DNA of 35,996 nt, taken from the NCBI GenBank assembly GCA_026396705.1, contig JAPLWE010000060.1, positions 1-35,996 of the forward strand, read 5' to 3'. The notes under the pieces were generated by a model. The model saw only the letters and a list, made by a program, of their open reading frames with translations. It searched no databases and was not told the DNA's origin. The position numbers and the translations under genes are program-made. The stretch comes from Candidatus Gribaldobacteria bacterium. Its GTDB lineage: Bacteria > Patescibacteriota > Minisyncoccia > Minisyncoccales > CG1-02-41-26. Of this stretch, positions 6,998-25,201 are shown piece after piece; the stretch's first letter is position 1; every line of letters begins with the position of its first letter.

Positions 6998-7028
6998 TTG
7001 ACAGCATACGTTTTTTTTTTGCTAACCT
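6998..7028 (+). promoter_or_regulatory. Putative promoter of CHAP-like cassette 1
   Basis: TTGACA then GCATACG(T)10 GCTAACCT; the equivalent TTGACG...GCGTGCG(T)8GCTAATCT precedes cassette 2. The -10 match is weak. Confidence 0.45.
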
Positions 7029-7044
7029 TAAAGTAGCTTTTATA

Positions 7045-7056
7045 ATTCAAGGAGAA
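7045..7056. repeat. Inverted repeat, left arm, cassette 1 (ATTCAAGGAGAA)
   Basis: Exact reverse complement of 7677-7688. Confidence 0.85.
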
Positions 7057-7064
7057 AGAATATA

Positions 7065-7080
7065 GTGGCATTATTGCCAC
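7065..7080 (+). promoter_or_regulatory. 5' UTR hairpin GTGGCA-TTAT-TGCCAC immediately before AGGAGG
   Basis: Perfect 6-bp stem; the paralogous leader has GTGGTA-TTAT-TACCAC (compensatory change). Confidence 0.8.
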
Positions 7081-7092
7081 AGGAGGATTAAA

Positions 7093-7659
7093 GTGAAAGT
7101 AAAAAATTGCATTTATCTTTTTGCTATTTTGTCAATGGTTCTAATGATAGGGTGCGGTTCGGATACGAATACGCCGACCGTATCTGAAAGTAATGACGGG
7201 CAGGCAATGCTTGCTCCTAATGTTTGTTATAGTGAAGCGCAAATCAATTCGTTAATATTGGCGGCGGCGGCAAAAGATGTAGGCAACACAAAAGCTGGGC
7301 AATGTAAGGTTTGGGTTAATAACATTGTGTATTCTTCAACGAAGATATCTCTCCCAGCAATGGATAGTTACTACACATGGGCGTCAAGCACCTTTGCTAG
7401 AATTATTTGGCAAGTCAAATTTGCTTGCGTTCCAAGTTTTTCAACAGCATTGAAGCCAGGTCAGATTATGCAAATCCAATGGCAATCAACCTACATGAAT
7501 GGCGGGCCTCATACCATCATCTTGCAATCGGTTTCGCCAACATCAATCTCGTATTATGAAGCCAATGCTGGACCTGCGGTTAGATTATGGACAACATCTA
7601 TAGCCCGATGGCAACAAATAGCGGGAGCTTGGACGGTTTACCAAGTCAAAAGTTACTAA
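7093..7659 (+). CDS. Lipoprotein with CHAP/NlpC-P60-like cysteine peptidase/amidase domain (paralog A)
   Basis: GTG start 6 nt after AGGAGG; signal peptide and lipobox (LMIGC); GQCKVWV (CHAP-type Cys) and GPHTIILQSV (His) motifs; paralog at 11650. Confidence 0.7.
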   Translation: MKVKNCIYLFAILSMVLMIGCGSDTNTPTVSESNDGQAMLAPNVCYSEAQINSLILAAAAKDVGNTKAGQCKVWVNNIVYSSTKISLPAMDSYYTWASSTFARIIWQVKFACVPSFSTALKPGQIMQIQWQSTYMNGGPHTIILQSVSPTSISYYEANAGPAVRLWTTSIARWQQIAGAWTVYQVKSY

Positions 7660-7676
7660 AACTAAAAAATTATTTC

Positions 7677-7688
7677 TTCTCCTTGAAT
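7677..7688. repeat. Inverted repeat, right arm, cassette 1 (TTCTCCTTGAAT)
   Basis: Exact reverse complement of 7045-7056. Confidence 0.85.
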
Positions 7689-7692
7689 AAAA

Positions 7693-7721
7693 CCAACTCC
7701 TATTGCGACAATAGGAGTTGG
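7693..7721 (+). other. Perfect 13-bp hairpin CCAACTCCTATTG-CGA-CAATAGGAGTTGG
   Basis: Read directly; no T tract follows; the equivalent position after the paralog has a hairpin with compensatory substitutions. Confidence 0.85.
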
Positions 7722-7744: not shown

Positions 7745-8740
7745 ATGCAGAAGTTAAAACGTAAAAAAATAATAAATATTATAGGACTTTTGTTAATTTT
7801 TATTTTTATAGTTAGCGCAGTTTTGCTTTTTTGGAATTCAAAAAAAGCGCAGAAAGCTGAAACTGAAAATAACCAATATCTGGGTATAGAGTTAATAAAA
7901 AATAAGAATCTTGTTAATGAAGCTATTGAAAAAATAAGCAAATTAAAAATTCCTGTTTTTACTAAAGATAACCCCGGGGTAATTATTGAAGAGATTTCTC
8001 ATGCTGTCAATCTTTATTCACCGCTTCAATTTGCTCCGGCAAAAAAGTATTGGCAATGGTGGATAAGCGATGACGGGTGGAACATACTTGATGAAAATGC
8101 AGTGGTAGCTTCATTAAACATTCCAGTTATAAGCGTTCAAGATCAGCGCACTGGAGAATATCAACCCGCAGGTCCCAAACATCCGTTATCCCAAACCTTA
8201 AATAAATTTATTTTTGATACATTTGAAAATAACGGTTTTCAGCTAAACGCAACCAATACATCTAAAACAGAAGATGATGACAGCCTTTTCGATTATGTTA
8301 TATCTTTCCAAAAAGGCGAATTAAGATGCGCTCTAAATACTAGCAATGGCGGCGCTCAAACTGATAAGCCAAACCAAAAAGAAAGCGGCTATTACTTTCT
8401 TTACTTCATTAGCTGTTCTAACCAATTTAACAAAGCATATCAGGAGCAAGTTCCCTACTTGAAGGTGCTAGGAAACTACGACACCGTAGTAGTTCCTGAA
8501 AAGAGAATAGGGAGTTTCGTTTATCTTAGCGTTCATGGTCGGTTAAGCGGATATTTTATAATTGGAGAGATGGCAAGAGAGAAAATGAAAATCATTTTTG
8601 CGGGGCAAGAGTATCCTCCTTGTAATCTGATGATAGATAATGGTGTTCCCATGGAAATATATGAGAAATGTGACGAGTCAAATTATCCCTATAAATCGCC
8701 GTCAAGCTATCAAACTATCTGGAACCCTCAAAGCCCTTAA
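7745..8740 (+). CDS. Hypothetical protein with N-terminal TM segment
   Basis: MQKLKRKKIINIIGLLLIFIFIVSAVLLFW... ATG at 7745 is preferred over the TTG at 7718, which lies inside the hairpin. Confidence 0.75.
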   Translation: MQKLKRKKIINIIGLLLIFIFIVSAVLLFWNSKKAQKAETENNQYLGIELIKNKNLVNEAIEKISKLKIPVFTKDNPGVIIEEISHAVNLYSPLQFAPAKKYWQWWISDDGWNILDENAVVASLNIPVISVQDQRTGEYQPAGPKHPLSQTLNKFIFDTFENNGFQLNATNTSKTEDDDSLFDYVISFQKGELRCALNTSNGGAQTDKPNQKESGYYFLYFISCSNQFNKAYQEQVPYLKVLGNYDTVVVPEKRIGSFVYLSVHGRLSGYFIIGEMAREKMKIIFAGQEYPPCNLMIDNGVPMEIYEKCDESNYPYKSPSSYQTIWNPQSP

Positions 8741-11552: not shown

Positions 11553-11581
11553 TTGACGGCGTGCGTTTTTTTTGCTAATCT
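11553..11581 (+). promoter_or_regulatory. Putative promoter of CHAP-like cassette 2
   Basis: TTGACG-GCGTGCG(T)8GC-TAATCT; aligns with the region upstream of cassette 1. Confidence 0.45.
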
Positions 11582-11600: not shown

Positions 11601-11614
11601 TATTCAAGGAGAAA
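11601..11614. repeat. Inverted repeat, left arm, cassette 2 (TATTCAAGGAGAAA)
   Basis: Exact 14-bp reverse complement of 12271-12284. Confidence 0.87.
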
Positions 11615-11621
11615 GAATATA

Positions 11622-11637
11622 GTGGTATTATTACCAC
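11622..11637 (+). promoter_or_regulatory. 5' UTR hairpin GTGGTA-TTAT-TACCAC immediately before AGGAGG
   Basis: Covaries with the hairpin at 7065-7080 (C-G to T-A). Confidence 0.8.
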
Positions 11638-11649
11638 AGGAGGCTAAAA

Positions 11650-12255
11650 GTGAAAAATTACATCTGTCTTTCAGTTATCGCTATCTTGTTAATGATTTTA
11701 ATGGTTGGATGTGGCTCGGACACGAATACGCCGACCATATCCGAAAGCAATGCTGGGCAGGCAATGTTAGCGCCACCAGTTTACACCGAAGCGCAAATCA
11801 ACTCGCTGATATTGGCAGCGGCGGCGAAAGATGTAGGCAAGTTAAAAGGTCAATGCAAACCTTGGGTAACAGCTTTGATACCACAAGCTGTGAGTGGTCG
11901 GACAATCGGCCCCACCGAACTGTGCAATTTGTATTATTATAATGCCCAGTGGAATCCTGCTGGCAATGCGAAAGTGGTGTGGCAGTTATATACCCCAAAT
12001 TCTTGCATAACCAGCTTTCCGTCTTCTCTGAAGTCGGGACAGATTATCCAGTTGAGGTGGAGGCCAGATGTTGCCAAGTATTGGAATTGTTGCAATAATG
12101 GTCCGCATACAGCCATAATTCAGTCTGTAAGCTCCACAAGCATGCAATGGTATGACTCCAATTTTAACAATGACTCCATTGTCAGATCGCACCCTTTCAG
12201 TTTAGCGCAGTGGCAAAAATATGTTGTCGCTTGGACGGTCTATCAGATTCTCTGA
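11650..12255 (+). CDS. Lipoprotein with CHAP/NlpC-P60-like domain (paralog B)
   Basis: Lipobox (LMVGC); conserved linker GSDTNTPTISESNAGQAMLAP; GQCKPWV; GPHTAIIQSV; same leader as 7093. Confidence 0.7.
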   Translation: MKNYICLSVIAILLMILMVGCGSDTNTPTISESNAGQAMLAPPVYTEAQINSLILAAAAKDVGKLKGQCKPWVTALIPQAVSGRTIGPTELCNLYYYNAQWNPAGNAKVVWQLYTPNSCITSFPSSLKSGQIIQLRWRPDVAKYWNCCNNGPHTAIIQSVSSTSMQWYDSNFNNDSIVRSHPFSLAQWQKYVVAWTVYQIL

Positions 12256-12270
12256 TTCTAAATAACAAAT

Positions 12271-12284
12271 TTTCTCCTTGAATA
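12271..12284. repeat. Inverted repeat, right arm, cassette 2 (TTTCTCCTTGAATA)
   Basis: Exact reverse complement of 11601-11614. Confidence 0.87.
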
Positions 12285-12286
12285 AA

Positions 12287-12322
12287 CCGAGCCCTATCAG
12301 AATGATTTTAAATAGGGCTCGG
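12287..12322 (+). other. Hairpin CCGAGCCCTAT ... ATAGGGCTCGG
   Basis: 11-bp perfect stem with a 14-nt loop; three compensatory differences from 7693-7721. Confidence 0.85.
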
Positions 12323-12334
12323 ACATTTCAACTT

Positions 12335-13090
12335 ATGCTCAAAAAAATCTCTAAAATACTAACCAAATATGCTTTGTGCGTCATAATCGCCCTGATTTTA
12401 ATTTCGGTTGCTTGGACGATAGTTTTTTATTTCCATTACAAGGGCAAAGAACAAACAACAGAAGCTAAATTTCAAAGCGATCTTAACATCGCCTTGAGTA
12501 ACCAAGTAGAAAAAGATATTTACGCTATTATCCCTGGCCCGAAATATTTCAATAAAAAATATGGATTCTCGATGGCAGTGCCGAGCGGTAGATGTATTTT
12601 AGAGTATAAATCATCGCTTTCAGATGGTGACATCATTTCATTAGTAGATAGAACTATTCAAGACAATCTTGGTATTTTTACTGACGCTATTCTGAAAGGC
12701 GAGCCAGGTTCTGGTGGCATAAGATATTATTTTTCTATAGTTATAGCGCCTATCAAAGCACCATTAAAAGATAAGGAAGGGCAGGGATCTTCTTCAAGAG
12801 AAGAAGCCAAAAATCTTGAACAAGCGTTTAAGAATGGTTTTGTTGAGAAAACTGAATATTGGATAAATAAGGACAGAAAGGTAACCCTGTATCTTACCGC
12901 AAAGAAAAATGAGGCTTGGCCGAATTCTCTGGACATGGAATTACCAGTTGAGGAAGCATTTTTTGAGGACGGGAACAATGTTTATAATTTTTTCACATCT
13001 GCTCCTTACTACAATGACAGCATAGAAGAAAGGGAAAGTCACATAAAAATAATGGAAGAAGCGATAAAATCAATAAAATTTATTGACTAA
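12335..13090 (+). CDS. Hypothetical protein with N-terminal TM segment
   Basis: MLKKISKILTKYALCVIIALILISVAWTIVFYF...; ATG at 12335 preferred over the TTG at 12278 inside the inverted repeat. Confidence 0.72.
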   Translation: MLKKISKILTKYALCVIIALILISVAWTIVFYFHYKGKEQTTEAKFQSDLNIALSNQVEKDIYAIIPGPKYFNKKYGFSMAVPSGRCILEYKSSLSDGDIISLVDRTIQDNLGIFTDAILKGEPGSGGIRYYFSIVIAPIKAPLKDKEGQGSSSREEAKNLEQAFKNGFVEKTEYWINKDRKVTLYLTAKKNEAWPNSLDMELPVEEAFFEDGNNVYNFFTSAPYYNDSIEERESHIKIMEEAIKSIKFID

Positions 13091-24015: not shown

Positions 24016-25201
24016 AAATTTTAATTGCTACACCTTTATTTCCTCCGGAAATTGGCGGCCCAGCCACTTATGTTTTTAATTTGGCTCAAAATTTGGCTAA
24101 AAGGGGAGTAGAGGTTTTAGTGATTTCATTTGGCAATAGCGAAAACTTGCTTTGGGAAAGAAATGAAAATAGTTTTGAAAAAATTATTGTGCCTTTGAAA
24201 ATGGCTAAAGGCCTAAGGCATATTTCTTTTTTTAGGCAAATTTTGCAAAATGGCAAGAATTTTGATTTGATTTATATCCATGACTTATGGTCGGTAGGTT
24301 TGCCTGTTCGTTTGGCTAATATCTTTTCAAGAAAGCCATTGATTGTTCGCTTAGGAGGGGATTCTCTATGGGAAGTGGCCGTAGAACGGGGTTTAACTAA
24401 AACTATTTTGCCTGACTACTATGAGCAATCTAAAAATGATCGCGAGAATTTAGTTAAAGCTTTACAAAATTTTGTGCTGCGAGGGTGTCATAAAGTTATT
24501 TTTTCTAGTATTTTTTTGCAGGATATTTTTTTGCGCTATCGGCCAATTACTCAAGAGCAGGCAATAGTTTTAGAGAACTCCCAGAAGATTGCTTTGGCTA
24601 TTTCTGCCATTGAGCCATTGAATAATCAGCCACCAGTTTTATTGTATGCGGGCCGCCTAACTAAATGCAAAAATTTAGAGACATTGCTTAAAGTTTTTTC
24701 TGAAGTATCAAAAAAGAATTCGCAGCTGATTTTTAAGATAGCCGGCAATGGCCCGCAAATGGTAAGCTTGCTTGATTTAGCTGTGCGATATGGCTTGGGG
24801 GCTCGTTTGAAATTTATTGGCGTTTTATCGGCCTCGGAATTAGCTAAAGAAATTACTCAAGCATGGCTTTGTGTTTTGCCGTCCTTGAGTGAAGTGAGCC
24901 CAAATTTTGCCTTGGAATGTTTGAGCTTAAAAAAACCGCTTATTCTAACCAAATATAATGGTTTGGCTGAAAATATTAAAAATAAGCTGATTCTAATGGT
25001 TTGGCTGAAAATATTAAAAATAAGCTGATTCTAATTGATCCGCTTGATGAGCAAGATATTTTTCAAGCCATAGCCAATCTGCTGGACAGTGAAAAATATC
25101 AGGCGTATTGTAAGGCTATCGCTAACTTGGATCTTAGCCGAACTTGGGATGATGTGGTTGATGAACATATAAAATTATTTGAAACGATATGTCAAAAATA
25201 A
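24012..25201 (+). CDS. Glycosyltransferase family 4, frame broken by a 38-bp tandem duplication
   Basis: PPEIGGPATYVFNLAQNLAKRG; LLYAGRLTKCKNLETLL; the C-terminus continues in ORF 25001-25201 after the duplication. Confidence 0.85.
24956..25031. repeat. Exact 38-bp tandem duplication
   Basis: TAATGGTTTGGCTGAAAATATTAAAAATAAGCTGATTC twice in tandem. Confidence 0.97.

Follow-up and report, generated by a model that had tools for sequence, protein, structure and literature searches.

To our knowledge, few bacterial mRNAs are known in which the 5' and 3' untranslated regions (UTRs) of the same molecule pair with one another, and the 3'-UTR elements reported are not conserved between relatives. 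In the hbs mRNA of B. subtilis, a pairing of approximately 14 nt between the 5' UTR and the 3' UTR is reported to shield the transcript's 5' UTR against cleavage by RNase Y (Braun et al. 2017, as reviewed in PMC7821165), and the hbs 3' UTR has been reported not to be conserved in the orthologs of close relatives (PMC7821165). In the icaR mRNA of S. aureus, a 7-nt pairing covers the actual Shine-Dalgarno (SD) sequence, which prevents initiation and generates a cleavage site for RNase III (PMC3868564). The hok and aapA type I toxin mRNAs are closed at full length by a 5'-3' interaction, with coupled covariation in the hok family (PMC6733600). The comparative analysis given below suggests that a long-range helix between the 5' and 3' UTRs probably closes a lipoprotein cistron in a manner most like the protective hbs interaction.

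The window, a stretch of 35,996 nt, belongs to a Paceibacterota genome of 847 kb (G000) and contains two copies of the lipoprotein gene. Perfect inverted repeats around these genes had been described in a first-pass annotation, and both pairs were confirmed, each flanking one lipoprotein gene. The features of the two copies are as follows (L008, L009, L010 and L020 are homologous loci in other genomes).

6998-7028, + strand: putative promoter of copy 1, recognized from the sequence (TTGACA, 7 nt, T10 tract, GC, TAACCT; 19-nt spacer), with a homologous block in copy 2, L010 and L008
7019-7046: alternative promoter match of copy 1 in the sequence, TTGCTA-16-TATAAT (TATAAT at 7041-7046), overlapping the first
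7045-7056, + strand: 5' arm of copy 1, ATTCAAGGAGAA (12 bp)
7065-7080, + strand: small leader hairpin of copy 1, GTGGCA-TTAT-TGCCAC
7081-7086, + strand: SD-like AGGAGG by the start codon of copy 1, separate from the 5' arm
7093-7659, + strand: lipoprotein gene, copy 1 (188 aa, GTG start), with a CHAP-like predicted fold and candidate Cys-His-Asn residues
7677-7688, + strand: 3' arm of copy 1, TTCTCCTTGAAT, the perfect complement of the 5' arm
7693-7721, + strand: hairpin 3' of the copy 1 3' arm, lacking a U-tract on this strand
7745-8740, + strand: membrane-anchored partner gene downstream of copy 1, a homolog of the L010 partner (phmmer E ~3e-78)
11553-11581, + strand: putative promoter of copy 2, also recognized from its sequence (TTGACG, 7 nt, T8 tract, GC, TAATCT; 17-nt spacer)
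11601-11614, + strand: 5' arm of copy 2, TATTCAAGGAGAAA (14 bp)
11622-11637, + strand: small leader hairpin of copy 2, GTGGTA-TTAT-TACCAC
11638-11643, + strand: SD-like AGGAGG by the start codon of copy 2
11650-12255, + strand: lipoprotein gene, copy 2 (201 aa, GTG start)
12271-12284, + strand: 3' arm of copy 2, TTTCTCCTTGAATA
12287-12322, + strand: hairpin 3' of the copy 2 3' arm, lacking a U-tract on this strand
12335-13090, + strand: membrane-anchored partner gene downstream of copy 2, a homolog of the L009 partner and weakly of the gene upstream of L020

The 5' arms of the two copies lie at -48 and -49 relative to the start codon and the 3' arms at +18 and +16 relative to the stop codon, with the hairpin directly after. 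The leader hairpins of copies 1 and 2 differ by one compensatory pair change, and L010 has only a 4-bp version. If the alternative promoter of copy 1 were used, transcription would start inside the 5' arm. The T tract between the -35 and -10 elements is 10 nt long in copy 1 (7011-7020), 8 nt in copy 2 (11566-11573) and 9 nt in both L008 and L010, with spacers of 19, 17, 18 and 18 nt respectively; such a homopolymeric tract could undergo slippage and is thus a candidate phase-variation site. A conserved leader peptide starting at GTG 7065 was considered and rejected, the frame having 8 codons in copy 1, an out-of-frame run-on in copy 2 and a different spacing in L010. Elsewhere in the window, a perfect 38-bp tandem duplication (24956-25031) is located close to where one reading frame ends, at its border with the next.

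The length of the repeats is by itself weak evidence, as a 12-bp repeat at such spacing is unremarkable. Shuffled windows contained on average 3.4 inverted repeats of at least 12 bp and 0.27 of at least 14 bp at a spacing of 400-900 nt, and several AT-rich inverted repeats of at least 12 bp in this range are also present in the window. What stands above chance is the placement in the UTRs, where the 5' arm falls within the leader and the 3' arm between stop codon and hairpin, together with the recurrence in homologs. The genome-wide search for the arms that the first-pass annotation had proposed gave five occurrences of the copy 1 12-mer in the 847-kb genome (approximately 0.19 expected). Four of these are the arms and the fifth lies in an unrelated coding sequence; the 12-mer occurs as a pair nowhere else.

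Both lipoproteins gave no match to a Pfam or NCBIfam family and no convincing sequence match in the PDB. The predicted model of copy 1 (mean pLDDT 74) resembles a CHAP amidase in its fold, the comparison with the CHAP endolysin domain Ly7917 giving a Foldseek E value of 1.3e-4 and a TM-score of 0.47. H140 and N158 are invariant in the family and the cysteine of a GQCK motif is present in most members; these residues would fit a Cys-His-Asn site. In close homologs a membrane-anchored partner gene adjoins the lipoprotein gene, and it is conceivable that the partner is an immunity-type protein against a wall amidase. A type I toxin-antitoxin mRNA was also considered and set aside, the products being lipoproteins of 188-201 aa with a CHAP-like predicted fold and an Rfam scan of the window giving no match.

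Homologs of the lipoprotein were sought in 1,390 genome look-ups and were found only in the window's own class, where their distribution is patchy; the named records with homologs are Paceibacterota and Zambryskibacteria MAGs. The viral contigs, plasmids and phages searched contained no homologs. Members with readable flanks were L010 (G022), L008 and L009 (G002), L018 (matching G659), L020 and L023 (G516), L021 (G551), L028, L032 and L034 (G742), L029 (G761) and L030 (G715). L008 may be decaying, since it carries a premature in-frame TAA before the C-terminus. At L009 (1-130, G002:C21), which lies at a contig edge, transposase-like sequence takes the place of the 5' half of the lipoprotein gene. 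The L009 3' arm reads TTCTCCTTGGGC, with GGGC at the place of GAAT in the window arms. The missing 5' half, whose leader would be predicted to contain GCCCAAGGAGAA, was sought in G002, and no match to the leader was obtained.

To score pairing between the two UTRs, the 90 nt preceding the start codon were compared with the 45 nt following the stop codon, and the best uninterrupted Watson-Crick helix between these segments was taken. Perfect cores of 10-14 bp were obtained for five genes of four genomes, the only genes for which the feature was shown. Copy 1 gave 12 bp with -20.5 kcal/mol, copy 2 14 bp with -22.7 kcal/mol, and L010 11 bp with -19.5 kcal/mol, its arms being of the type that the window and G022 have in common (ATTCAAGGAGA / TCTCCTTGAAT). 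L008 gave 10 bp with -19.1 kcal/mol (GAATACGCCT/AGGCGTATTC) and L020 11 bp with -20.0 kcal/mol (TAACAATCCGC/GCGGATTGTTA). The start of the 3' arm falls between +13 and +18 in all five genes, that of L008 being counted from the distal stop, and the 5' arm lies at -26 to -55. When leaders were combined with 3' UTRs, the pairing was -19 to -23 kcal/mol within an arm type and -6 to -14 kcal/mol across types. The relatives keep complementarity in the same places while the letters have changed, so evolution seems to preserve the pairing itself.

Control genes were taken from contig samples of the four genomes, and 3 of 751 reached -19 kcal/mol. Among the 245 controls from G000, two had a helix of this strength between leader and 3' UTR. 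One is a putative REP-type transposase gene and the other a PaaX-like gene, each with palindromic flanks; both look like mobile or palindromic elements. At L056 the putative REP-associated-type transposase gene (minus strand, 1388-2134) is flanked by the palindrome TGTCAACACCGAGTGTTGACA and its inverse. At L050 (3324-3932, G000:C12) a PaaX_M gene (Cas2-like domain) lies between inverted copies of a palindromic element that share a 26-bp inverted repeat. Counting the window and G022 arms once on account of their shared ancestry, there are 11 units, and finding three independent arm types in them has P ~1e-5 against the 751 controls; for two arm types among the ten units outside the window type P is ~7e-4, values that serve as guides since the -19 kcal/mol cut-off was set after the family was seen. 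Eight more distant homologs (L018, L021, L023, L028-L030, L032 and L034) lacked strong pairing. The 7-bp helix of L018 (-13.1 kcal/mol) was equalled by 17 of 245 controls, and the other seven fell within the control range, with no strong pairing.

These distant homologs, the frequency of 12-bp repeats at this spacing and the common ancestry of the window and G022 arms would all suit an origin by chance or hitchhiking, in which the window and G022 inherited their arms along with a duplicated gene, those of G002 and G516 being coincidental. Such an origin is nevertheless improbable, as two more unrelated arm pairs were found in the ten remaining units and their positions agree as well. It is likely that the pairing itself is the property under selection.

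The sequences around the arms bear on the choice between an RNA helix and a DNA element. Upstream of the 5' arm, copies 1 and 2, L010 and L008 share a promoter block composed of a TTGAC-like hexamer, 7 nt, a tract of T8-T10, GC or GT and TAA..T; downstream of the 3' arm, copies 1 and 2, L010 and L009 share a homologous hairpin. In L008 the window promoter block is retained (TTTTTTTTTGCTAACCTTGAAGTAG) and the arms have been replaced on both sides. The first-pass annotation had offered two hypotheses, terminal inverted repeats of a mobile cassette of approximately 0.65 kb or a long-range contact within the mRNA, and had taken the shared sequence beyond the arms as slightly favoring an RNA role. 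This last point held, the conserved promoter block and hairpin both lying outside the arms. The patchy distribution of the lipoprotein family would suit a cassette, and inverted repeats do flank single genes elsewhere in G000, namely the putative transposase and PaaX-like genes described above. Against this, copies 1 and 2 and L010 have the promoter block and the hairpin in common outside the arms, L008 shares the promoter block, the arms differ between homologs while the outer promoter is constant, and in the genome the 12-mer occurs as a pair only around the two window genes. Since the outer promoter stays in L008 while both arms differ, RNA pairing is favored over transposon ends. The cassette is therefore disfavored, with very little probability left to it, and complementarity across three unrelated arm types supports the 5'-3' mRNA contact. 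A conserved DNA operator was likewise judged unlikely, because the arm types are unrelated in sequence.

The 5' and 3' arms had also been described as SD-like and anti-SD-like. In the window the 5' arm does contain AAGGAG and the 3' arm reads UUCUCCUU, which would allow the helix to act as a translational brake: the 3' arm, serving as an anti-SD, would keep the ribosome-binding region covered until removal or displacement of the 3' end. Masking of the SD by a 5'-3' interaction is documented for icaR (PMC3868564) and aapA3 (PMC6733600), and a product resembling a peptidoglycan amidase could need tight control. However, the AGGAGG next to the window genes is a separate element downstream of the 5' arm and outside the helix, and the core helices of L008 and L020 are situated 5' of the SD, with core arms that are not SD complements. 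Deletion of the 3' arm in silico hardly altered SD accessibility in copy 1, L010 and L020, slightly lowered it in copy 2 and raised it from 0.43 to 0.62 in L008. Simple SD masking is argued against because removal of the 3' arm frees no SD in four of the five genes and frees that of L008 only moderately. The 3' end of the G000 16S rRNA (L062, G000:C36), GGATCATTTCTATT, is also devoid of CCTCC; the motif is likewise absent in the family members G017 and G011 and in G551, and is present in G516. Loss of CCUCC has already been reported for other candidate phyla, for example Campbellbacteria and Wolfebacteria (PMC10783764). SD-like tetramers in G000 are not enriched before starts (4.5% compared to 8.5% further upstream). 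A clean AGGAGG is found in the lipoprotein genes and a handful of other G000 genes despite this 16S rRNA. SD likeness therefore does not hold as the essence of the arms and appears, on comparison of the arm types, to be incidental to one arm sequence among several. A translational brake, which together with a processing stem forms the main functional alternative to protection, is unlikely.

In the minimum free energy folds, each of the five predicted transcripts (691-760 nt) is closed by the arm helix, with a core pair probability near 1. The predicted helix extends to approximately 20 bp with bulges in copy 1, covers 14 bp in copy 2 and runs well past the 10-bp core in L008. A 5'-3' run of at least 8 bp was predicted in 12 of 116 genes of G000, both window genes among them. 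Control genes often show 5'-3' closure, and whole-transcript folding as sole proof was dropped; the folds show compatibility, and the claim rests on the comparative evidence. We infer that the helix predicted in these models also forms in the cell.

In the proposed mechanism the two arms would pair with each other to form a long-range RNA helix. The 5' arm would lie in the leader approximately 50 nt before the start codon and, from the promoter prediction, approximately 10-20 nt from the 5' end of the mRNA; the 3' arm would lie approximately 15 nt past the stop codon, directly before the hairpin. Once the cistron is transcribed the ends would zip together, placing the reading frame in a closed loop. 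The main task of this loop would be protection or insulation: as in the hbs mRNA, decay that depends on the ends or is directed by the leader would be kept from the lipoprotein cistron, a role that is put forward tentatively and may well not be the principal one.

The position of the partner gene bears on a further role. It lies downstream of the lipoprotein gene in the window, L010 and L008 and upstream of it in L020, where the 5' arm overlaps the stop codon of the partner. Because of this upstream partner, the L020 5' arm need not be near the 5' end of an mRNA. Since no U-tract follows the window hairpins on the + strand, cotranscription of the partner gene is possible. With the arms enclosing the lipoprotein frame in either arrangement of the partner, and read-through into the partner being plausible, the helix could be a stem similar to those around rRNAs, at which a double-strand-specific nuclease cuts a polycistronic transcript and so separates the lipoprotein cistron from the partner gene. 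The core helices of L010 and L020 are just 11 bp, which speaks against such processing, and it is regarded as improbable. A last possibility, to which hardly any weight is given, is that the closed-loop mRNA itself governs translation in a lineage devoid of the anti-SD, for example by handing terminating ribosomes back to the nearby start; the 5'-3' helix would then be fast-evolving yet always complementary.

Complementarity that is apparently maintained through sequence replacement is a signature of selection on pairing. The arms offer a concrete case in which bacterial closed-loop mRNA could be tested by compensating changes, in a group whose RNA regulation is little studied.

When compared with known systems, the arms resemble the terminal inverted repeats of small mobile elements in being perfect inverted repeats that flank one gene, and differ from them in that the conserved promoter block and hairpin of the window lie outside the repeats. 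The lipoprotein mRNA shares with the hok and aapA mRNAs the predicted 5'-3' closure of the full-length molecule; those encode small toxic peptides and are accompanied by antisense RNAs, whereas here the product is a lipoprotein of approximately 190 aa and the Rfam search gave no antitoxin RNA. As in icaR, an anti-SD-like motif in the 3' UTR would pair with a purine-rich motif in the leader of its own mRNA. One difference is that the lipoprotein arm lies apart from the gene-proximal SD-like motif and is not SD-like in two relatives. The likeness to hbs consists in a pairing of at least 10 bp between both UTRs of one protein-coding mRNA; protection is proposed here by analogy, and the lipoprotein pairing differs from that of hbs in surviving complete replacement of its arms.
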